DNA from: Deltaproteobacteria bacterium
GTDB lineage: Bacteria > Desulfobacterota > Binatia > UBA9968
Length of the DNA stretch: 34,387 bases
Assembly (NCBI GenBank): GCA_009692615.1
Contig: SHYW01000050.1
Location: 1-34,387, forward strand
Direction of reading: 5' to 3'
In this document: positions 12,665 through 33,716 of the stretch, piece after piece
Numbering within the stretch: the stretch's first letter is position 1
Layout of the letters: each line of letters starts with the position of its first letter
The notes under the pieces: model-generated
Database searches by the model: none
Seen by the model: only the letters and a program-made list of their open reading frames with translations
What the model was told of the DNA's origin: nothing
Program-made: the position numbers and the translations under genes

Positions 12665-13174
12665 TCAATGGCGCCAGCTGCGCTCGGAGCCGGCGCCCCT
12701 ATGGGCTTCCGTGTTAGTGAACGAGCTTTCATTGTACATGCGCATGGCCATTTCCGTGAGAGTAGAGACTGCGTATTGTTCGATATTGAGCTGTCCGTCC
12801 TCGCCGCGGTATTCAAAGCGCATCAATTCCCGGTCGATTGAAGAAGGGACGCGAGATATCCGTAGTAGCGTGCCTTCCATATTTTCCACGTAGCGTCCAA
12901 TGGCGCGGAGAATTTCCGACATCGCTGCGAAATCGACTAAGCCGAGACCGCTGCTGCCGTTCCCGCGGTCCCTGGCCGCGGCGCTATCTAACGCGGCGAT
13001 TTCGTCATCGGAAAAAGTGGTTTCCCGCGAACCGTCATCGGGAAGATTCGGATCGTCGCATCGAAGGTAGTATTCCATGGGCGAGAGACGCAGTTCGAAC
13101 AAGTTTATGCCGCGCCGTTTAAGCTCTTGCCCAATGATCCGTAGTGCCCGTGATTCGTTATAGCGCGCCGACAT
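12665..13174 (-). CDS. Unknown protein, tandem paralogue 1
   Basis: The product is 169 residues. I start at ATG 13174 (MSARYNESRAL) because AAAGGA precedes it and the paralogue begins MAARYSQSKAL. It has a helical N-terminus, IIGQELKRRGINLFELR, then EYYLRCDDPNLP, an Asp/Glu-rich stretch (FSDDEIAALD), ILRAIGRYVENMEGTLLRIS, an acidic beta segment and a C-terminus ending ERSWRH. There is no signal peptide and no membrane span. The paralogue at 13311-13811 aligns over the full length, so the pair arose by tandem duplication. No known family recognised. Confidence 0.75.
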   Translation of the reverse strand: MSARYNESRALRIIGQELKRRGINLFELRLSPMEYYLRCDDPNLPDDGSRETTFSDDEIAALDSAAARDRGNGSSGLGLVDFAAMSEILRAIGRYVENMEGTLLRISRVPSSIDRELMRFEYRGEDGQLNIEQYAVSTLTEMAMRMYNESSFTNTEAHRGAGSERSWRH

Positions 13175-13310
13175 AAGGTTTCCTTTGTCGAAAGCGCTCG
13201 CGTTGGTCAACCCCCCCACCCGTCACTACCCGGTGATTGGCTTGTCCCTTAGCCGAGCACTCTGTCGGTGTCCGGGCAGAATGAATGTGATTCTCGACGG
13301 CTGCGACCAA

Positions 13311-13811
13311 TCAATAGCGCCAGGATCTTTCGGCACTGCTAATGTTGGCGGCTGCCTTGCTTGTGCGCACACGTTCTTTGTACATCCGCGTGGCAGTTTC
13401 CGAGAGAGTGGCGAGCGTCAGCTCTTCGACGTGAACATGGCCCTCTGGTCCATGGTATTCCACGCGCATCATTTCCTGGTCGCTTTCCGAAATCAAATTC
13501 GATACCCGCAACAAAGTGCCGTCTTTGTTTTCGATGTAGCGGCCGATGGCGCGCAGTAATTCCGGTAGTGCGTCGAAGTTGACAAAGGTATGTTGGTTAC
13601 CTCGAAGCGCCGCCACGGCGCGTTCCAACGATTCGAGATCGTCATTCGAGAGGGTGATTTCTACCATTCCGAGATAGGGCGGGTTGGGATCGCCGCATTG
13701 CAAATAATATTCTTTACGCCGGCAGCGCAGCTCGAACAAATCGATACCGCGCCGTTTCAGCTCTTGTCCGATAGTGCGAAGAGCTTTCGACTGACTATAT
13801 CGCGCTGCCAT
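13311..13811 (-). CDS. Unknown protein, tandem paralogue 2
   Basis: The product is 166 residues and is upstream of its paralogue on the same strand, 136 bases apart. Shared blocks are RTIGQELKRRGIDLFELR, KEYYLQCGDPNPP, LSNDDLESLE, LLRAIGRYIENKDGTLLRVS, RVEYHG and the C-terminal ERSWRY. Length and block spacing agree with the downstream copy, and the divergence suggests an old duplication with both copies maintained. The Shine-Dalgarno is weak. Soluble, with many charged residues. The fold and role are unknown; a role as a small regulatory or binding protein is only a guess. Confidence 0.75.
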   Translation of the reverse strand: MAARYSQSKALRTIGQELKRRGIDLFELRCRRKEYYLQCGDPNPPYLGMVEITLSNDDLESLERAVAALRGNQHTFVNFDALPELLRAIGRYIENKDGTLLRVSNLISESDQEMMRVEYHGPEGHVHVEELTLATLSETATRMYKERVRTSKAAANISSAERSWRY

Positions 13812-14777: not shown

Positions 14778-15893
14778 ATGATAAGCTTGTGGAGACGGGT
14801 TCTAACGATTGCGGCGCTTCTGCCAATGCTAAGCGCGCAAGCGTTTGCCCAGTCGGATTGGAAAAAAGAATGGGAGCGCACGGTTCAGGAGGCGAAGAAA
14901 GAAGCTTAGCTCGTGGTCGGCATTCCGGCCCGCCCGGAGCTGCGCAAAGAATTGGAAGCGCTGTTCAAAAGTAAGTTCGCCATCGACTTGGAAACGCTGC
15001 CGGCGCGCGGGCCGCAGAACGCCAGCCGCATCGCTGCCGAATCCGCCGCTGGGGTAAAATATTTTGACGTCTTCATCGGCGGCAGCGGCACTTACGAATC
15101 GTTGGTCGAGAGTGGCATCGCCGCGCCGCTGGCGCCGCTGATGCTCTTGCCGGAAGTGAAGGAGGCGAAAAATTGGTGGGGTGGCCATATCTGGGAAGAT
15201 AATTTGAGCGGCAACCGATTTCTATATTCCTTTATCGCCGATGCCGGCACCGGCGGCTTTTGGTACAACCCGGAACAAGCCAAGGCGCAGGAGTTGCGCG
15301 AGTTGAACGATTTTCTCAATCCCAAATGGAAGGGTAGGATCGGCTTTCTCGATCCGCGCACGCCGGGCTCCGGTCAATCGATCTGGTCGTTTCTCTGGGA
15401 CGTCAAAGGCGAAGCTTATCTAAAAAAACTCTTGCAGCAAGAAATGTTCATCGGCCGCGATCAACGTCAATTGGGCGACCCCCTGGCCAAAGGCAAACTC
15501 GCCTTCGCCCTCGGCGTGAGTTTCTACACATTGGAAGGTTTTCTCACTGCCAACTTGCCGGTGAAAGAAATTCCCGCACTCAAAGAGGGATTGCCGTCGA
15601 GCAACGGCTCCGGCGTCATCGGCGTAGTCAAAGACCCGCCCCATCCCAACGCCGCGCGCTTTTTCGTCAACTGGTTATTGTCGAAAGAAGGGCAGGAGCT
15701 GTACGTCAAGGTCATGCATCAATCGACCCGCCGCTTGGACGTGAACACCAAATGGCTGCAAGACCACAGCGTGCGCGCCGCCAAAGATGTCATGACCGTC
15801 GAGCAATACCACAAGGTGAGAAATCATTTGGAAGACAAGTACACCAAAGTGAGAATCCCCGCCGCGAAGTTCGCGGAGGAGGTGCTGCAGTAA
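14778..15893 (+). pseudogene. Extracellular solute-binding protein gene with in-frame TAG
   Basis: The frame from ATG 14778 encodes a signal peptide (MISLWRRVLTIAALLPM, cleavage near AFAQ) and the start of the mature protein, DWKKEWERTVQEAKKEA. It then meets TAG at 14907-14909, and continues in the same frame as LVVGIPARPELRKELE to the stop at 15893. Relatives read KKEGQLVV at this point, so one change (CAG to TAG) explains it. The rest of the protein is a complete type-2 periplasmic binding protein of the iron(III)/spermidine class (YFDVFIGGSGTYE, FYTLEGFLTANLPV, PNAARFFVNWLLSKEGQ). The start has CGGAG upstream. A start at GTG 14913 would make a protein without signal peptide. Confidence 0.8.
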
Positions 15894-15944
15894 GATTCGA
15901 ATTTGTGTTGAGAGACTTCAGTTCGAATAGTGGCGTCCGAATTT

Positions 15945-16853
15945 CTACAACAATAGCCCGTCACGCAAAAACATCAACGCGTCTTGCTCCTCTCCGCCTA
16001 AAGTTGCGTTGCCGTGAAAAAACCGATTGTTAAGAGAGATTCGTTCCGTCCTCGTTAACTTATAACAGCTTCCGTGAATCGCCAGACGGTTTTGCGACTC
16101 AGGCATTCTGAGTCTTTCAAGGTTTATCTTATCGTACCCGAATCCAAGAAATACGATTCGATTAGCTTCGTTTGTACAAGCGTGAGCCCGGGTAAATTCA
16201 GAAACTTTTTCTATGTCCATATCTTCGTGGATGATTCTTATGTTCTCACTCGCTAATCGTATCTGCGTATCCCTCGACAGATTTGACTTTCCATATTTGA
16301 GATATTTGCCACCTTGCCACGGAAGTAATCCTAGATGGCCATGTAGGTGAATGATTGGAACATGTTCCAATAACCGCGCAGTTGTTTCATCAGAGAGTCC
16401 GTAGGAGCGTTTGAATGCAGTAAACAAAAAGTGTTCAAATGATCGGTCGTAGTTGTAGGTTACGACTGTAAGGGCGTTGTTCTGAAACTCGTCCGGCATC
16501 GCATTTAAGTGCTTGTAGAGATAAAAATACAAGTTGTCACCTTGGGTCTCGAATAACTCGTTATGCAATTCATATCTCGTTAGCTCTTGTGCAATAGCAA
16601 CTTTGCCTATTTCAAGAAAACTAGGTCGGTGTTCGAGAAAGGCATCTACGGAATCTTTGCCAGACTCCCAGAACTCATTACGAAAATCTTCAATATCCTT
16701 GTCGTCAAACCCAATGTCGCGGAGTTCTTTGTACACTGCACTACCTGGGTCTAAGTTTCTAATAATATTGTTCCGTAGTTTGACACCCAAAGGGAACCCA
16801 AATGGGTGACTAGCACCGGCTCCAAAAACAAGAACAGTTGGAATGGTAATCAT
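15945..16853 (-). CDS. SIR2-like domain protein, possible NAD-degrading defence gene
   Basis: The product is 302 residues and belongs to the SIR2_2-type clade. NAD-binding marks are VLVFGAGASHPFGFPLG (near the N-terminus), TYNYDRSFEHFL, the catalytic-type His in IIHLHGHLG and VFLGFGYDKINLERL. Proteins of this group in phage-defence systems hydrolyse NAD to stop growth of infected cells; here it stands alone, with no partner gene next to it. I use ATG 16853; a TTG two codons earlier is also possible, and neither has a Shine-Dalgarno. Base composition is visibly lower in GC than its neighbours (lines I counted are about 35-52 percent against nearly 60), a sign of transfer. Repeats at 16905-17030 lie just upstream. 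Confidence 0.75.
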   Translation of the reverse strand: MITIPTVLVFGAGASHPFGFPLGVKLRNNIIRNLDPGSAVYKELRDIGFDDKDIEDFRNEFWESGKDSVDAFLEHRPSFLEIGKVAIAQELTRYELHNELFETQGDNLYFYLYKHLNAMPDEFQNNALTVVTYNYDRSFEHFLFTAFKRSYGLSDETTARLLEHVPIIHLHGHLGLLPWQGGKYLKYGKSNLSRDTQIRLASENIRIIHEDMDIEKVSEFTRAHACTNEANRIVFLGFGYDKINLERLRMPESQNRLAIHGSCYKLTRTERISLNNRFFHGNATLGGEEQDALMFLRDGLLL

Positions 16854-16904
16854 AGACAATGACTAGTGAGAATTAGGGCATCCGGATTTCCACGATTCCA
16901 GGAG

Positions 16905-17030
16905 AGGCTTGAGGGTCAGGACGGAGGCTTGAGGGTCAGACTTTTACATCACAACAATCTGAAAAGAAAGTCTGGAAGTAAAAGTCTGACCCCGCCCCCC
17001 AATGACGTTCATGTGACCCCAATGACATTC
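16905..17030. repeat. Repeat cluster upstream of the SIR2-like gene
   Basis: Three overlapping patterns are seen. A 15-base sequence AGGCTTGAGGGTCAG is repeated exactly at 16905-16919 and 16925-16939. A perfect 15-base inverted repeat, GGGTCAGACTTTTAC at 16933-16947 and its complement at 16978-16992, has a 30-base loop. A near-direct repeat, CCCAATGACGTTCATG then CCCAATGACATTCATG, follows at about 16998-17032. The pattern looks like the end of, or a scar from, a mobile element. Confidence 0.75.
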
Positions 17031-17163
17031 ATGGCATTTGCTCCGGTGATCGAATTTCAAAGCCCTGTTACACTGTAAGATCATTGCTGGCCCCCAATAA
17101 TTTCGATTAGACTCAACCCGTAACCTGGCGTCATGTAGCGATGAGACCGGAGTCGAGAAGGCT

Positions 17164-17865
17164 TCAGACAGCCATCCTGACCGGGTTTTTCTGGAAGTGG
17201 CTTTTCACTTCCTCGATATGCATCACATCGGCGTACTTGTGATGCATATCGAACAAGTTGACCTTGTGCGACAAGTGGCTTCGATCGAAGCAGCATTCTT
17301 CCACGACCACCACGTGATAGCCGTAGGAGTAGGCGTCGACCACCGAGGCGCGGACGCAGCCGCTCGTGCTTTCTCCGCAGACGATCAAGCTGTCGACCCC
17401 GAGACGCGTTAGATTTGCAACCAGAGCGGTGCCGAAGAACGCGCTCGCCCGCTGCTTGTAGACCACGATATCGCCCGGCTCGGGCTTGAAGTCGTCGCGG
17501 ATCTTGAACGATTCTTTTTCGCCGCGGAACTTGTGCTTGGTCGCGTAGACACCCGCCGGATTCACTTCGTCGCGGGTCTCGCTGGTGGTGTAGATCACGG
17601 GCAGGCGCTTTGCCCGCGCCAGGGCGATCAGCTCCTGGATCGGCTTGATCGCGTTGTGGGCGTAGAGGCCACACGATTTCTTGTGCTCCTTCACCACCTC
17701 CGCCACGGGGGTCGGCCCGCCTTCGAACACGAGGTTGTAGAGATCGATGGCCAGCAACGCAGAATTCCGGCCGACGTAGGTTTCCCGGTTGTAAGATTTG
17801 TAGACCTCGCGGATCTCGTCGTCCATCAAATCCTTCCAGCAATGCTCCTCAAATGTCTTGTTCAT
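17164..17865 (-). CDS. Isochorismatase-family cysteine hydrolase
   Basis: The product is a 233-residue hydrolase of the isochorismatase superfamily, closest in look to N-carbamoylsarcosine amidase-type enzymes that cleave amides or carbamoyl groups. The catalytic triad is visible: Asp41 in ALLAIDLYN, Lys137 in VVYKQRASAFFGT and Cys170 in CGESTSGCVRAS. The start ATG at 17865 has GGAGGACGACG directly before it. It is 16 bases downstream of the tctC-type gene in the same direction, so both probably share a transcript and may handle one imported amide or acid. The true substrate is unknown. Confidence 0.9.
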   Translation of the reverse strand: MNKTFEEHCWKDLMDDEIREVYKSYNRETYVGRNSALLAIDLYNLVFEGGPTPVAEVVKEHKKSCGLYAHNAIKPIQELIALARAKRLPVIYTTSETRDEVNPAGVYATKHKFRGEKESFKIRDDFKPEPGDIVVYKQRASAFFGTALVANLTRLGVDSLIVCGESTSGCVRASVVDAYSYGYHVVVVEECCFDRSHLSHKVNLFDMHHKYADVMHIEEVKSHFQKNPVRMAV

Positions 17866-17881
17866 CGTCGTCCTCCGATTG

Positions 17882-18985
17882 TTATTGCAGAAGCTTCTCC
17901 AGACGTTTCACCATCTGCGGCGAAGGCGCCATCACTTCCCGCGCCAACCGCTCCAGTTCAGGGCCGCTCTTGGCATTGATATCGAGGTTCAGCTTGCGCG
18001 CCTCGGCGAGGAACTCAAGATTTTTCATCGTTTTAGAGAAAGAGTCACGCAAAAGATCCAGGCGATCCTTCGGCAACCCCGGCGGCGCTACAAACGGCCT
18101 GCCGAAATCCGGCGCTCCCAAGACCACCTTCATAAACTCGAGATCCTCTTTGCCGATCTGCTGTTTTTGCGCCAGCTCCCAAACCGTCGGCACATCGGGC
18201 AACGCAGCATGCCTCTCCCTTCCACTATGAACCACCACCCGAATGAAGCCGGTCTTGACCCATGTTTTCAACGGCTCCGCGCTGAGAAGCGTGGTGATGC
18301 TGATTGAACGGCAGACCGCCTCGCCAATTTCGATAGCGAGGTTCATGGCTCCCGAACCTTGATAACCCAGCACCTGCTTGAATTTCGCGCCGAACACCTC
18401 GGTAAGAAGCCGGATGAACGCATAGTTCGGCGACCCCGCCGCGCTGTCAGCGCAGACCACGGGTTCCCGGGCCGCACTGATGTCATCCAGGCTTCGATGG
18501 CCGGAATCGCTCCGGACAAAAACGCTGATAATATTGGGCTGGTCCGTGCCGATCCAGCCGAACTTCACCCAGTCGAATTTGATCTCCGGTTTGGCGAGGA
18601 GCTGCGCCTGATAGAGTCCCGCAGCGATGAGGCCCAGGGTGAGCCCGTCGGGCTTTGCCACGCTGTAGACATAATTTGCCGCAATCGCTCCGGCGGCGCC
18701 GGGCATATTCTGGACCACGAACTGCGGGTTTCCGGGAATCTGCCTCGGCAGGTGCCGGGCCACAAGCCTGGCCAGCAGATCGCTGCCGCCGCCCGCCGTT
18801 CCGTAATCGACGATCCGAATGGTCTTGTCTTCATAAAACGGGCGAGCCTGGGCCCATGCGTTTAGAGTTTGTAAGATAACCGAGATGGTTGCACAGCAAA
18901 AAAGCAAGACCCACATATGGATAGTCTTTTTAAACGACCTTTTTCTATGACCGGAGCCATATCGCAGGACCGGGAGAGATGTCAA
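17882..18985 (-). CDS. TctC/Bug-type tricarboxylate transporter binding protein
   Basis: The product, up to 367 residues, is a periplasmic binding protein of the tripartite tricarboxylate transporter family. After a long basic leader (HRKRSFKKTIH) come a hydrophobic signal segment (MWVLLFCCATISVIL) and a likely cleavage near AWAQ. The mature part opens FYEDKTIRIVDYGTAGGGSD and has the family's LPRQIPGNPQFVV and NMPGAAGAIAANYVY. No TctA/TctB membrane genes are in the window, typical of Bug proteins encoded as orphans. The start is uncertain: TTG 18985 keeps the basic leader, while ATG 18916 would remove it. Operon with the isochorismatase-family gene is likely (16-base gap). Confidence 0.8.
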   Translation of the reverse strand: MTSLPVLRYGSGHRKRSFKKTIHMWVLLFCCATISVILQTLNAWAQARPFYEDKTIRIVDYGTAGGGSDLLARLVARHLPRQIPGNPQFVVQNMPGAAGAIAANYVYSVAKPDGLTLGLIAAGLYQAQLLAKPEIKFDWVKFGWIGTDQPNIISVFVRSDSGHRSLDDISAAREPVVCADSAAGSPNYAFIRLLTEVFGAKFKQVLGYQGSGAMNLAIEIGEAVCRSISITTLLSAEPLKTWVKTGFIRVVVHSGRERHAALPDVPTVWELAQKQQIGKEDLEFMKVVLGAPDFGRPFVAPPGLPKDRLDLLRDSFSKTMKNLEFLAEARKLNLDINAKSGPELERLAREVMAPSPQMVKRLEKLLQ

Positions 18986-19072
18986 TTCCTTATTCTGCTT
19001 GATAAAAAACCCACTGTTGTACCGGGCGGCTCGGCCGGAGAGCAGTCGGGAGGCACCCGAAAGGTTCGATAT

Positions 19073-19107
19073 GGCGCCGCTCGCTCGAACTCAGAGCGAG
19101 CGGCGCC
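19073..19107. repeat. Perfect 14-base GC-rich hairpin
   Basis: GGCGCCGCTCGCTC (19073-19086) and its exact complement (19094-19107) flank a 7-base loop. It lies 34 bases beyond the stop of the IS91-type transposase remnant and upstream of the tctC-type gene. No T-run follows on either strand, so a standard terminator is unlikely. It could be part of an IS91-type terminal or origin region; that is inference. Confidence 0.7.
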
Positions 19108-19140
19108 GTCGGCTTGCCCTGGCAAGCGGTTTTCGGCTCC

Positions 19141-19330
19141 TCAGATCGTTTGGAATAGATCGAATCGGCGAGCCGGGGCACGCGGCGGGGCGCGGGTCGG
19201 CAGGCCGAGATGGCTGAGGATCTTGTCGATCACCGGCGGATCTTCGATGGCCTGCCCTGAGCAGCCTGTCGAACGGGCAGCGATGATCTTCAAGCTGCCG
19301 CCGCAGTTCGGGCAGTGTTCGATGTCTAGG
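19141..19330 (-). pseudogene. C-terminal remnant of an IS91-type transposase
   Basis: The minus strand encodes DIEHCPNCGGSLKIIAA, then after a 27-base repeat IEDPPVIDKILSHLGLPTRA, ending DLFQTI and a stop at 19141. This is the characteristic end of IS91/Y2-type transposases, with its Cys-x-x-Cys zinc knuckle. The N-terminal catalytic part is missing and an in-frame TAG lies a few codons upstream of DIEH. Between IIAA and IED, a palindromic repeat adds residues of the type RSTGCSGQ. The remnant marks an old insertion in the region that contains the degraded cupin fragment. Confidence 0.75.
19251..19280. repeat. CCTGAGC/GTCGAACGGG-type short repeat
   Basis: CCTGCCCTGAGCAGCCTGTC then GAACGGGCAG forms an imperfect palindrome. 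The words CCTGAGC and TGTCGAA followed by GGG recur in the nested repeat at 31885-31970. Here it has landed inside the transposase remnant without shifting its frame. Confidence 0.6.
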
Positions 19331-19440
19331 AACCTTGTCAGACTTGCCTAAGTCTACTAACTTTCTTTCTCATCATACCGATTCCGTTTTCGCTCTCCAG
19401 CTGGAGAGGCGCAGTCCATTTAAACCTTTGTACGAAGCAA

Positions 19441-19706
19441 TCAAAGCACCGGCATGGCGCTCTTCACGACTTTTTTCTTAAGTTCGTCCTCGTAGTGTTT
19501 GCGCACGTAGGGATCTTCATCGGCGTATTCGATCAGCGTGCCGCCCTGCTTGATATAGACACCGTCTTCGCTGCGTTTGTCCGCGATTTTAAAACCGATG
19601 GGGTGGATGCGGCTGCCGTAACGCAGCGCTGAGTGACGAGCGGGGTCGGCGCCGCTATCGAAATGTTCCTGGAACCGACCACCGCTCGTGCGGCGGCATA
19701 GCCGAT
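19441..19706 (-). pseudogene. Degraded C-terminal fragment of a cupin gene
   Basis: The minus strand encodes FQEHFDSGADPARHSALRYG, then SRIHPIGFKIADKRSEDGVY and GGTLIEYADEDPYVRKHYED, ending SAMPVL at 19441. It aligns closely with the end of the cupin gene at 20296-21423 (FHQHFNTGADPARHLALRYG and following). Upstream the match resumes in another frame (PPHERW, about 19690), so there is at least one frameshift, and everything N-terminal to that is gone. It is a second, decayed copy of the same type of gene, next to the transposase remnant. Confidence 0.75.
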
Positions 19707-20295: not shown

Positions 20296-21423
20296 TCAGA
20301 TCTTCGGCATCGCCGACGTGACGCCGCGCTTGGCGCACTCGTCCTCGTAGTGTTTGCGCACATACAGATCTTCGTCGGCGTACTCGATCAGCGTGCCGCC
20401 TTGTTTGATGTCGATGTAGACGCCGTCTTCGCTGCGTTTGTCGGCGATTTTGAAACCGATGGGATGGATGCGGCTGCCGTAGCGTAGCGCTAGGTGGCGC
20501 GCCGGATCGGCGCCGGTGTTGAAGTGTTGATGGAACCAGCCGCCGCCGGGGCAGTAGACGCTGCCGGCTTTCCATTTGACCTCGACGACGTCTTCGGCGC
20601 GGCCGGCTTCGAATGGATGCGTGCCCAACTCTTTCGACCACAACAAGACGTAACCCGAGGATTGCAGGCCGAGGAGAATCGCGCCGGCGCCGTGATAGTG
20701 CGCCTTGTGGTAGCGCGCCGCCGGCCAGGTGGCGAGATGGCCGATTAAACTGTTGCCGGCGATTTCAAACTGGGTGATGCCGACGCCGGCGCCTTTGACT
20801 TCGCGCTTGTCGACGCTGGCGGTTTGAATGTCGCTGATAAAATTGGTCTCCCAGATGTGCTGCATGCCGTCTTCGTAGCGTTTCAGGCCTTGATTGAAAT
20901 AACCGTCGGCGGCTGTGTATCGGTCGGAAAAATTGTATGGGCAGTTAAAAATAAATTCTTCGTTATGCACGATGTCCATCACCAAGGGCGCGTTAGTGAC
21001 GGCCAAATATTTCACCGGCGTGCGGCCGCCGTTGATCAGGCGGTGATTGCTATTGAGCGGCGGCGCGAACAAACTCCACGGCCCCCATTCGAACATCTGC
21101 TTGGTGCCGCCGTCCTGCCAGACTTCGGTGGCGCCGTTGCCTTCGAGGATGACGATCACTTCTTCGTAAAAATGTTTTTCCTCCTTCAACGCGCCGCCGG
21201 CGGGAATCTCGCCGACGTACATGCCGGTGACGCCTTCCATGCCGTAGAGATTGAGCAACGCCGCCTTGCCGCCGGTGCGCGCCTATGGCGCCATCGCCAC
21301 GTCGCGGACATCTTCGACGCCGAAGCCGTCGACGACGGGAAGGCCTTGTTTCGCCGCCCATTTGAAGTAAGTGGTTTTGCGGAAGGCCGCCATCAAGGCT
21401 TCGACACGTTGATCGATCGACAT
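20296..21423 (-). pseudogene. Two-cupin protein gene with in-frame TAG
   Basis: Read through, the frame gives 375 residues from ATG 21423 (GGGAG is seven bases upstream): MSIDQRVEALMAAFRKTTYF, DGFGVEDVRDVAMAP, then TAG at 21283-21285, then ARTGGKAALLNLYGMEGVTG. Relatives likely have Trp there (PW; TGG to TAG). The rest contains two cupin domains resembling gentisate-dioxygenase-type bicupins: an N-terminal one around KHFYEEVIVILEGNGATEVW and a C-terminal one around HKAHYHGAGAILLGLQSSGYVLLW with GGWFHQHFN. His and Glu metal ligands are present in the second cupin. Restart at TTG 21258 could yield both cupins without the N-terminal 55 residues, so some activity is possible. Confidence 0.8.
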
Positions 21424-32403: not shown

Positions 32404-32477
32404 GCCCCCGTAGCTCAGGTGGATAGAGCGCAGGATTCCTAATCCTGAGGCCACGCGTTCGAATCGCGTCGGGGGCA
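32404..32477 (+). tRNA. trnR: tRNA-Arg (CCU anticodon)
   Basis: The cloverleaf is complete over 74 bases: acceptor GCCCCCG with CGGGGGC, D-stem GCTC/GAGC, anticodon stem CAGGA/TCCTG with loop TTCCTAA (anticodon CCT), a 5-base variable loop, and T-arm ACGCG-TTCGAAT-CGCGT. The discriminator is A and the CCA end is not encoded. It reads AGG codons. An integrase gene follows 18 bases downstream in the opposite direction, so the tRNA 3' end is the probable integration site. Confidence 0.95.
32453..32477. other. Probable attachment site (attL) in the 3' part of tRNA-Arg
   Basis: Tyrosine integrases of this kind often recombine in the 3' half of a tRNA gene, leaving it intact. The integrase reads toward the tRNA and ends 18 bases from it. 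The T-arm and acceptor end are the likely shared core. No second copy of this sequence was found to the right edge, so the other end of the element must lie outside the window. Confidence 0.5.
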
Positions 32478-32495
32478 TTTAAGTTCAACCACTTA

Positions 32496-33716
32496 TCACG
32501 CCATTTTCAAGTTTTGCTTTGCGGAAGTGTCCACAAAGTGTCCATCGTGGTCTTCGGTAGCGGGTTTGGCGCTCAAGATCATTCCAGCAAGCCGGGAAAT
32601 CGAATCGGTTTTCGTTCTCGGCATCCAATGCGAATAAACTTTGAGCGTGATTTGTGGGTCTGCGTGTCCAAGGTAACTGGACACTTCCGTGATCGGTGTA
32701 CCTTGAGACAGCAGCAGCGAAGCGAACGTATGTCTTAGCGCGTGCATGTCGAGCTTCTTAACTTCGGCCTTGCGGATCGCCGGATGAAGCCCTCCTCGCA
32801 ACACGGTCTTTCGATCATTGGGCGAGCCGTTTTTTTTCGGGAACACCAAGTCCCATTTGCTGATCGGACAAGAGAGCTTCCAGCGCTTTAACGCTTGCAC
32901 GAGTTCCCCTGAAATCGGAATCTCCCTGATGCCATGCTTCGATTTCGGCACGTAGAAGATCGGTTCTTCGTCGCGCCACTTGTCCGGCCAGGTGCGCCTT
33001 ACCGTGATCTTGCCGGCACCGAAGTCAATGTCGCCCCATTGCAAACCCAACGCTTCGCCGTGGCGCATGCCGGTCGTGGCGATGGTGAAAATCAGCGACT
33101 TGTAAAAACCCGGTTCGGCATTTTGGATTAGCCGGTTTAGCTCTTCCGCGTTGTATACTTCTTCCGGTCTGGCTTCCGACGCCTCTTTTTCGGAAGCTTC
33201 CACCGATCCGCTACCCAAGCGCTGCGCGTTGCTGGCGGGATTATGCTTCACTTTCCCAAGTCGCACGGCTTCGTTGAAGATTGCCGTCGTCGTGGTAAGA
33301 AGCTTGTTCACAGTGATCGGCAAGAGCTTCTTCTTCTCAACGCTGTTTCCGTCGCGCCACGCCAGCCGCTGCGTTTCAATCGTCGTTGTGCTGATCTGAT
33401 CCAAGCGCTTGTCACCAAAGGCGGGAACTAAGTAAGTGTCGATATGATTCTTCCAGTGATCGAGAGAGGTCTCTTTCACAGGCTTGCCGTGCTTTCCAGC
33501 GTTCACTTTCTTGTTCTCGAACCATAACTCGGCCATCGTCTTAAACGTTGGAATCGCTTTCGGCGCGATATACTCGCCACTTCTTACCGCGACACGCTTT
33601 TCATCAAGCGCCGCTTTCGCTTCCTTCTGCGTCGGAAAACTTTTCCGATGCCGGTCGCCTCGGCTATCGCGGAAATCTATTTGATACCAACCCGATGATA
33701 ATTTTTTGATTGCCAT
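32496..33716 (-). CDS. int: Tyrosine-recombinase integrase
   Basis: The product is a 406-residue phage/ICE-type integrase. Visible are an N-terminal arm-binding domain (GWYQIDFRDSRGDRHRKSF), a SAM-like core-binding domain (ETSLDHWKNHIDTYLVPAFG) and the catalytic domain with Arg in TGMRHGEALGL, the lysine strand VPKSKHGIREIPI, HALRHTFAS, SSYLGHADP and the nucleophile Tyr in VYSHW. All key residues are present, so it is probably active. It follows the small XRE gene directly, the ATG touching its stop codon. The base composition is less GC-rich than the housekeeping genes. Confidence 0.95.
   Translation of the reverse strand: MAIKKLSSGWYQIDFRDSRGDRHRKSFPTQKEAKAALDEKRVAVRSGEYIAPKAIPTFKTMAELWFENKKVNAGKHGKPVKETSLDHWKNHIDTYLVPAFGDKRLDQISTTTIETQRLAWRDGNSVEKKKLLPITVNKLLTTTTAIFNEAVRLGKVKHNPASNAQRLGSGSVEASEKEASEARPEEVYNAEELNRLIQNAEPGFYKSLIFTIATTGMRHGEALGLQWGDIDFGAGKITVRRTWPDKWRDEEPIFYVPKSKHGIREIPISGELVQALKRWKLSCPISKWDLVFPKKNGSPNDRKTVLRGGLHPAIRKAEVKKLDMHALRHTFASLLLSQGTPITEVSSYLGHADPQITLKVYSHWMPRTKTDSISRLAGMILSAKPATEDHDGHFVDTSAKQNLKMA
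32526..32544. repeat. Paired AGTGTCCA sites, left
   Basis: AGTGTCCA occurs at 32526-32533 and 32537-32544, an 11-base step in direct orientation, inside the integrase 3' end (codes for part of GHFVDTS). The same pair in opposite orientation lies at 34256-34274. They look like arm-type binding sites for integrase or excisionase. Confidence 0.6.

Follow-up and report, generated by a model that had tools for sequence, protein, structure and literature searches.

We identified a stand-alone SIR2-like gene in a stretch of 34,387 nucleotides from a Deltaproteobacteria bacterium (the whole of which is called the window here), and phage defence is its best-supported function, as inferred from the comparisons below. 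The specific reading that it is a mobile, single-gene effector of abortive infection that would act by depleting NAD+ we judge about evenly balanced between right and wrong, both its activity and its role in defence being deduced. The defence reading is supported by a fold like that of defence SIR2 proteins, by the residues of the NAD site, by the lack of a recurrent neighbour, by carriage on viral contigs, by an empty site in the genome G004 and by a patchy distribution.

The coding sequence was located at positions 15945 to 16859 on the reverse strand from an uninterrupted open reading frame, matches to Pfam and PADLOC profiles, and the fold. Of the interval 15945-17030 given in the first-pass annotation, positions 16860-17030 are a non-coding repeat stretch. 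Translation may start from a TTG at 16859 or an ATG at 16853, and the ATG is the likely start since Met is residue 3 in 71 of the 84 rows of the family alignment. The protein is a single domain of 304 residues and its reading frame is the sole family match (E ≤ 0.001) in a genome of 5.05 Mb that is 98.7% complete.

Five motifs were found on the reverse strand from the sequence and the family alignment. These are GAGAS, the Rossmann NAD-binding loop (residues 13-17, positions 16809-16823); the family signature SVDAFL (residues 70-75, 16635-16652), with D72 in 82/84 rows; NYDR, containing the catalytic Asn (residues 136-139, 16443-16454); HLHG, with H171 and H173 (residues 171-174, 16338-16349); and the C-terminal motif GFGYDKIN (residues 239-246, 16122-16145). 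The catalytic Asn and His of the N(Y/F)D and HG motifs are both present in the window protein, as N136 and H173, and the earlier statement that NAD-binding and His motifs are there holds, with GAGAS, NYDR, HLHG and GFGYDKIN all intact. E97, N136, R139, G174, G239 and N246 are invariant in 84/84 rows. The GAG triplet is found in 81 of the 84, the remaining three being gapped, and H171 in 83, the exception being the fragmentary reading frame L062 with an Arg. The NAD-site residues, which the first-pass annotation had proposed to check in an alignment, were thus found to be kept.

The window protein scores 20.4 bits against Pfam SIR2_2 (PF13289), below the gathering cut-off of 24.5, and it is therefore described as SIR2_2-like by fold and motifs and not as a member of the Pfam family. 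The PADLOC model 'SIR2' matches it with an E value of 6e-6, and a scan of the protein with NCBIfam profiles gave zero matches. An AlphaFold2 model made with 72 family sequences as input had a pLDDT of 95.2 and a pTM of 0.92. The top Foldseek matches of this model were SIR2-HerA, DSR2, KomC, Avs5, ThsA, SPARSA and FAM118B, and the match to the SIR2-HerA chain (E 2.3e-6) places the protein with the SIR2 Rossmann fold. By VIA-align the model superposes on PsSIR2 of SIR2/HerA (8w9l_A) with a Z of 15.3 and an rmsd of 4.1 over 251 residues; Z was 14.2 for KomC, 14.1 for ThsA, 13.6 for DSR2, 12-12.7 for deacylase sirtuins and 12.2 for FAM118B. The structural comparison with defence SIR2 proteins that had been suggested earlier thereby returned the first six Foldseek proteins as best fold matches, and the SIR2-like identity is borne out by the modelled fold and by a family of 83 loci. 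Taken alone, likeness of a modelled fold would say nothing on function. The window protein has two Cys and no CxxC pair, so that it is without a zinc module, and none of the 84 family members has two CxxC pairs. SIR2_2 proteins are likewise described as being without a zinc module in the excerpt of PMC12700824.

The family was collected by an alignment-based scan of a collection of GTDB-species genomes, from which the best 80 of 236 relatives were kept; three loci from the genomes of further relatives brought the number to 83. Among these best 80, identity to the window protein is at most 44%, and the kept relatives come from Planctomycetota, Pseudomonadota, Ignavibacteriota, Acidobacteriota, Chloroflexota, Gemmatimonadota, Omnitrophota and other phyla. 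The distribution is patchy: beyond the genome of the window itself, a search of 144 other relatives gave homologues in 3. Most of the 83 loci have one reading frame of about 290-350 amino acids. A set of 72 rows was obtained from the 84 by dropping three rows of relatives, six fragmentary, broken or contig-edge reading frames, one duplicate and two over-long reading frames; one PADLOC SIR2 model matches 60 of these 72 members and Pfam SIR2_2 matches 43 of them at E ≤ 0.001. On plasmids the matches were distant: identities were 24-28% for 12 plasmids of Agrobacterium/Rhizobium, of which 11 are typed as conjugative. The window genome also carries a second SIR2_2-like reading frame (L132, G000:C64:13664-14011) of 417-445 amino acids that scores under the Pfam cut-off; it has the motifs TTNFD and YLHG, and its listed start lies just upstream of TTNFD. 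No description of a stand-alone H-x-[H/Y]-G family was found in the titles and abstract openings of the open PMC literature, which is mostly without subscription papers, and this is not proof of novelty.

The position of the canonical catalytic His was assigned by alignment to H146 of KomC, the residue mutated in entry 9xvc, which falls on family column 173. This is a firmer basis for column 173 than a profile-profile alignment with seven other SIR2_2 proteins, which set H173 on the canonical His with a column confidence of 0 there. Column 173 holds 42 His, 42 Tyr and nothing else in the 84 rows. In the window protein both 171 and 173 are His, and the viral set described below has Tyr at 173 in 19/21 and His at 171 in 20/21. 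The catalytic His residues of DSR2, Nezha and SIRT1 are taken by us to lie in the same column as residue 173. As reported in excerpts of the respective papers, the His of the DSR2 pair N133/H171 is needed for NAD+ cleavage (PMC11087589), N168 and H227 of the Vibrio cholerae Nezha SIR2 are needed for immunity (PMC11559045), and in SIRT1 the mutation H363Y causes loss of function (PMC2642761). Read from the alignment, the Tyr forms appear to mimic the classic dead-sirtuin mutation at the catalytic His, and part of the family may not cleave NAD+, which is a counterweight to the defence reading.

Parsimony on a tree of 80 of the 84 rows required at least 19 switches between His and Tyr, compared to 22-32 with shuffled labels. 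Resolution of this tree is poor, with 43 of its 76 inner branches open, and the figure of 19 should be taken as a parsimony count from a weak tree. His and Tyr forms do not differ in how well the named active-site residues are conserved. Other columns, for example 214, 243 and 135, differ between the two forms in counts that are uncorrected for relatedness; Arg at residue 214 occurs in 0/42 His forms and in 17/42 Tyr forms, again uncorrected for relatedness. For comparison, 30 loci of relatives gave 14 reading frames of other SIR2_2 proteins, of which 12 had a site that could be read by eye: nine are K-x-H-G, one is H-x-H-G and two are Y-x-H-G. The H-x-[H/Y]-G site of the window family thus differs from the K-x-H-G found in 9/12 of these proteins.

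The Tyr forms may either be inactive NAD binders or be proteins in which H171 took over, and the conservation of the rest of the active site in them would favour the latter. A tentative and somewhat doubtful extension is that the catalytic His has moved in the family as a whole, so that H171 would do the work of the canonical His, either His or Tyr would be tolerated at residue 173, and the Tyr forms would be active single-gene defence NADases, many of them on prophage-like elements. We find it quite unlikely that the protein is instead a sensor or an assembly subunit that binds NAD or ADP-ribose and has little or no catalytic activity, at least in its Tyr forms, and that perhaps builds mixed filaments like those of FAM118A/B. 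That explanation would account for the Tyr in half of the members and for the further columns that vary with it, such as residue 214 (uncorrected for relatedness), and it has a parallel in FAM118A and FAM118B, which are weak apart and active together according to the excerpt of PMC12700824. The equal conservation of the named active-site residues in both forms speaks against it, as do the presence of H173 in the window protein and of one family member only in its genome. Because half of the rows (42 of 84) have Tyr at 173, H171 and H173 need separate treatment in a test with His mutants. The alternation, together with a near-invariant His two residues upstream, makes the chemistry of immune sirtuins testable by point mutants, and it cautions that the HG motif alone cannot class family members as dead or alive.

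We then compared the neighbouring genes, using longest-ORF calling, reading frames of at least 70 amino acids and all-against-all BLASTP at 1e-8 for bacterial and 1e-6 for viral loci. No recurrent partner gene was found over the 83 loci at these settings (E ≤ 1e-8). The widest shared neighbour families were present in 7 and 5 of the 83 loci at scattered positions, and by reading of example sequences they appear to be response regulators and ABC transporter ATPases. A shared gene set was found only among closely related Roseateles/Rubrivivax/Mitsuaria loci, and in three loci of this group (L064, L065 and L072) the SIR2 gene has a KfrA_N gene on one side and a DUF4238 gene on the other. PADLOC models were run on 231 neighbours (150 + 81) and Pfam on 150 of those. 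The Pfam-named bacterial neighbours are mostly non-defence genes; defence models are scattered among the neighbours (3/150 match one for a type I methylase, for instance), the outputs giving no count of distinct positive genes. We make no claim of defence-island enrichment from these scans.

Scanning IMG/VR with the family alignment gave 25 loci on viral contigs, whereas the same scan with the window protein alone gave none. The window protein, L148 and L140 were used as tblastn queries against 50,697 annotated phage records, and none of them found a match; we therefore take the viral loci to be probable prophages, or integrative elements of a phage-like kind, whose hosts are poorly sampled. 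Their viral setting is given by the IMG/VR classification, integrases and phage-type genes, many of the records being fragmentary. A phage integrase was found on 8 of the 11 viral records tested. One terminase profile matched 4 of the 11, one match being weak (E 4e-5) and one having two internal stops. As a control, the integrase profile matched 14/14 and the terminase profile 11/14 of 14 whole genomes, so a match tells that a record is mobile or has phage content, and not that it is pure. The protein of locus L140 is 46% identical to the window protein over 263 residues, a score level with the closest bacterial relatives; its gene adjoins phage-type primase, DNA methyltransferase and helicase genes, and its record did not match the one terminase profile. 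A terminase gene lies 1.3 kb from the SIR2 gene of L144. L142/L143 and L145/L146 are apparently near-identical SIR2-bearing viral contigs in different IMG/VR records. A viral subgroup (L147, L148, L150 and L153-L162) has proteins of about 340-420 amino acids with the active-site motif H-P-Y-G, which in L162 is R-P-Y-G, and L148 adjoins a KAP P-loop NTPase gene.

The search for a recurrent neighbour in the 25 viral loci (reading frames of at least 70 amino acids, BLASTP 1e-6) found the widest families in 4/25, two of these loci being near-copies. One such family includes a DNA methyltransferase (L145), and in a PHROG scan of 144 of the 161 viral neighbours phage DNA-methyltransferase profiles matched at most 6 of the 144. 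These data bear on the explanation, which we hold to be very unlikely, that the gene encodes the toxin of a toxin-antitoxin pair so far unrecognised, or that it benefits the phage or element otherwise. NAD+ depletion would be toxic and the gene is carried on viral contigs, as such an explanation would have it; however, no neighbour family recurs in the 83 bacterial or in most of the 25 viral loci, a comparison of reading frames of at least 70 amino acids that fast-changing partners would escape.

At the window locus, the SIR2 gene is flanked on one side by a convergent solute-binding-protein gene 51 bp off and on the other by an isochorismatase-domain gene 304 bp off. The first-pass annotation had seen no partner gene, and these flanks, together with the lack of a recurrent neighbour over the 83 loci, bear it out. 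A pattern scan for promoters and terminators found none. In genome G004 of the same genus, a transporter gene on contig C29 (ending at window position 15893) is followed by 15 bp and then by a match to window position 19604 onward. A segment of 3.7 kb (15894-19603) is thus missing at the syntenic site, both flanks being adjacent in G004, and it contains the SIR2 gene, the repeats, the isochorismatase-domain gene and a TctC-type receptor gene. The difference may be a joint insertion or a loss in G004, there being one informative sister; in the other three genomes of the genus the transporter gene is less close, with best full-length matches of 67-68%. Positions 19484-19685, at the right edge of the missing segment, are 84-88% identical to 20339-20546 and are a partial copy of part of the reading frame 20296-21258, which has a weak cupin match. 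Two tandem similar reading frames on the reverse strand (12665-13219 and 13311-13811) have the stretch 'IGQELKRRGI' near both starts and no Pfam family at cut-off. Near the contig end, at 32404-33716, a phage integrase gene (PF00589, E 6e-25) comes immediately after a tRNA-Arg(CCT); an integrated element probably has its border here, at a distance of 15.5 kb from the SIR2 gene.

The base composition of the SIR2 gene was found to differ from both sides as noted earlier, with a GC of 0.431 and a GC3 of 0.443 compared to 0.53-0.61 and 0.60-0.82 in the 26 other genes of the window. The same offset was seen in the 70 of 83 bacterial loci with enough neighbours. SIR2 GC was below the flank median in 66/70 (median offset -10.4 points), GC3 was lower in 61/70 (median offset -15.8), and SIR2 was the lowest-GC gene of the locus in 43/70, where 10 were expected. 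Among length-matched neighbours used as a control, adjacent genes were lowest in 8/52 (7.1 expected) and others in 12/199 (25.4 expected). In the viral set, which for GC and active site held 21 of the 25 loci (two near-copies and two weak or partial loci omitted), SIR2 GC was below the neighbour median in 21/21 and lowest in 13 (2.2 expected). The FYMINK fraction is 0.29 for SIR2 and 0.23 for the comparison, so amino-acid make-up explains part of the AT offset, yet GC3 is also low. As the gene is AT-rich in 66/70 bacterial and 21/21 viral-contig loci, its low GC should be seen as characteristic of the family more than as proof that the gene was recently transferred. SIR2 GC also follows that of its flanks (r 0.79, slope 0.73; neighbours r 0.91, slope 0.99), and the offset therefore looks like something kept up over time, or restored by recurrent transfer, and less like the trace of one recent event. 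The use of low GC as a sign of acquisition is in this way weakened: the offset is real, and for the window gene larger than the family median, but it is family-wide and tracks host GC.

The repeat cluster upstream of the gene (16904-17033) was defined from the sequence, genome copies and folding. It consists of direct repeats, namely identical 16-mers at 16904 and 16924 and 17-mers (94%) at 16997 and 17017, and of a palindrome with 18-nt arms (16933-16950 and 16975-16992, 94%). Folded as DNA, the hairpin had a z of -6.8, with an equal or better value in 0/200 shuffles. Within the window the motif GGGTCAGAC is confined to the cluster, on the 5' side of the SIR2 gene. Four diverged or partial copies of the hairpin, of 29-64 bp, are present elsewhere in the genome, and at least one of 46 bp is found in G004 (contig C109) among the matches listed, apart from the only family match of G004, a distant one on contig C43. 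The genome has two Y1_Tnp transposase matches, with an arm-like stretch about 0.8 kb from one of them. The direct and inverted repeats of the first-pass annotation are real, but their interpretation as scars of SIR2 arrival was rejected, because the palindrome is dispersed in this genome and in G004. We read it as a REP-like element between two genes, in keeping with the behaviour of REP/RAYT elements. What stands of the earlier acquisition claim is mobility, for which the empty site in one sister and the viral contigs speak; the repeats do not, and low GC does so less than proposed.

Altogether, these observations are weighed against the explanation that the protein serves metabolism or the response to stress, as an ADP-ribosyltransferase or as a regulator dependent on NAD+/ADP-ribose, and was spread by ordinary gene transfer. 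A single-domain protein with flanks mostly without a defence label would fit such a role, and enzymes of the sirtuin superfamily are able to ADP-ribosylate, as stated in the excerpt of PMC9503650. The patchy distribution, the carriage on viral contigs and the persistent AT-richness suit conflict genes better than housekeeping genes, and we consider the regulator improbable. The defence reading has counterweights of its own in the annotated phage records, which gave no match, in two of four terminase matches that are weak or broken, and in neighbours that are mostly non-defence genes. According to the defence reading, the protein would be an immunity-type sirtuin of one domain, without activity until the cell is infected. 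It would then be turned on by a phage product or metabolite, whose target would be either the SIR2 domain or a distant host protein with its gene elsewhere than beside the SIR2 gene. Since the protein has neither a sensor domain nor a partner gene next to its own, the trigger would have to work through the SIR2 domain or through a protein encoded elsewhere; trigger, oligomerisation and protection are all conjectural parts of the model. The activated enzyme would cleave NAD+ to nicotinamide and ADP-ribose, and the loss of NAD+ would stop the cell ahead of phage multiplication, the gene travelling as lone cargo, prophage-like elements included. If a SIR2 effector has neither a fused sensor nor an adjacent partner gene, one has to ask how some 300 residues could detect an infection.

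Compared to the immunity sirtuins ThsA, DSR1/2, SIR2-HerA 'Nezha', SPARSA and Avs5, the window protein has the same SIR2 Rossmann fold without a zinc module and the same GAG.S, N(Y/F)D and HG motifs. ThsA, DSR2, Nezha and SPARSA have a fused sensor or a dedicated partner, whereas the window protein is without a sensor domain and without a HerA, TIR or Argonaute neighbour. Among solved structures its best sequence-profile match is KomC (E 7.6e-6), a single-domain SIR2 NADase of similar size with a TTNYDR motif and with Lys at the column of H171. KomC we take to be the SIR2 effector of the Kongming system, with the gene set KomABC. Judged by the Pfam families of the flanking genes, the arrangement of KomA and KomB beside komC is absent from the window locus. 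Titles of structure entries have KomC acting in a KomBC complex, a gene for which is missing from the flanks of the window gene, and since KomC works with KomB it is no precedent for acting alone. The vertebrate proteins FAM118B and FAM118A have a single SIR2_2 domain with the active-site Asn and His and no zinc module, and are active as a paralogue pair, with filaments, each being weak singly (excerpt of PMC12700824); FAM118B matches the fold of the window protein with an E value of 2.3e-5 at 14% identity. KomC and FAM118B both form filaments according to structure-entry titles and the same excerpt (PMC12700824). The known single-domain SIR2 proteins with structures thus act with a second protein, and solitary action has less precedent. 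AbiH is a single-gene system. The AbiH abortive-infection protein is a predicted Sir2-superfamily enzyme in the excerpt of PMC3506569, and thereby of the same superfamily as the window family; its Pfam profile (PF14253) matches 2/72 family members (best E 4.3e-5) and gave no match to the window protein at E ≤ 1. By analogy, AbiH would be a nearer precedent than KomC or FAM118B for a single gene acting alone.
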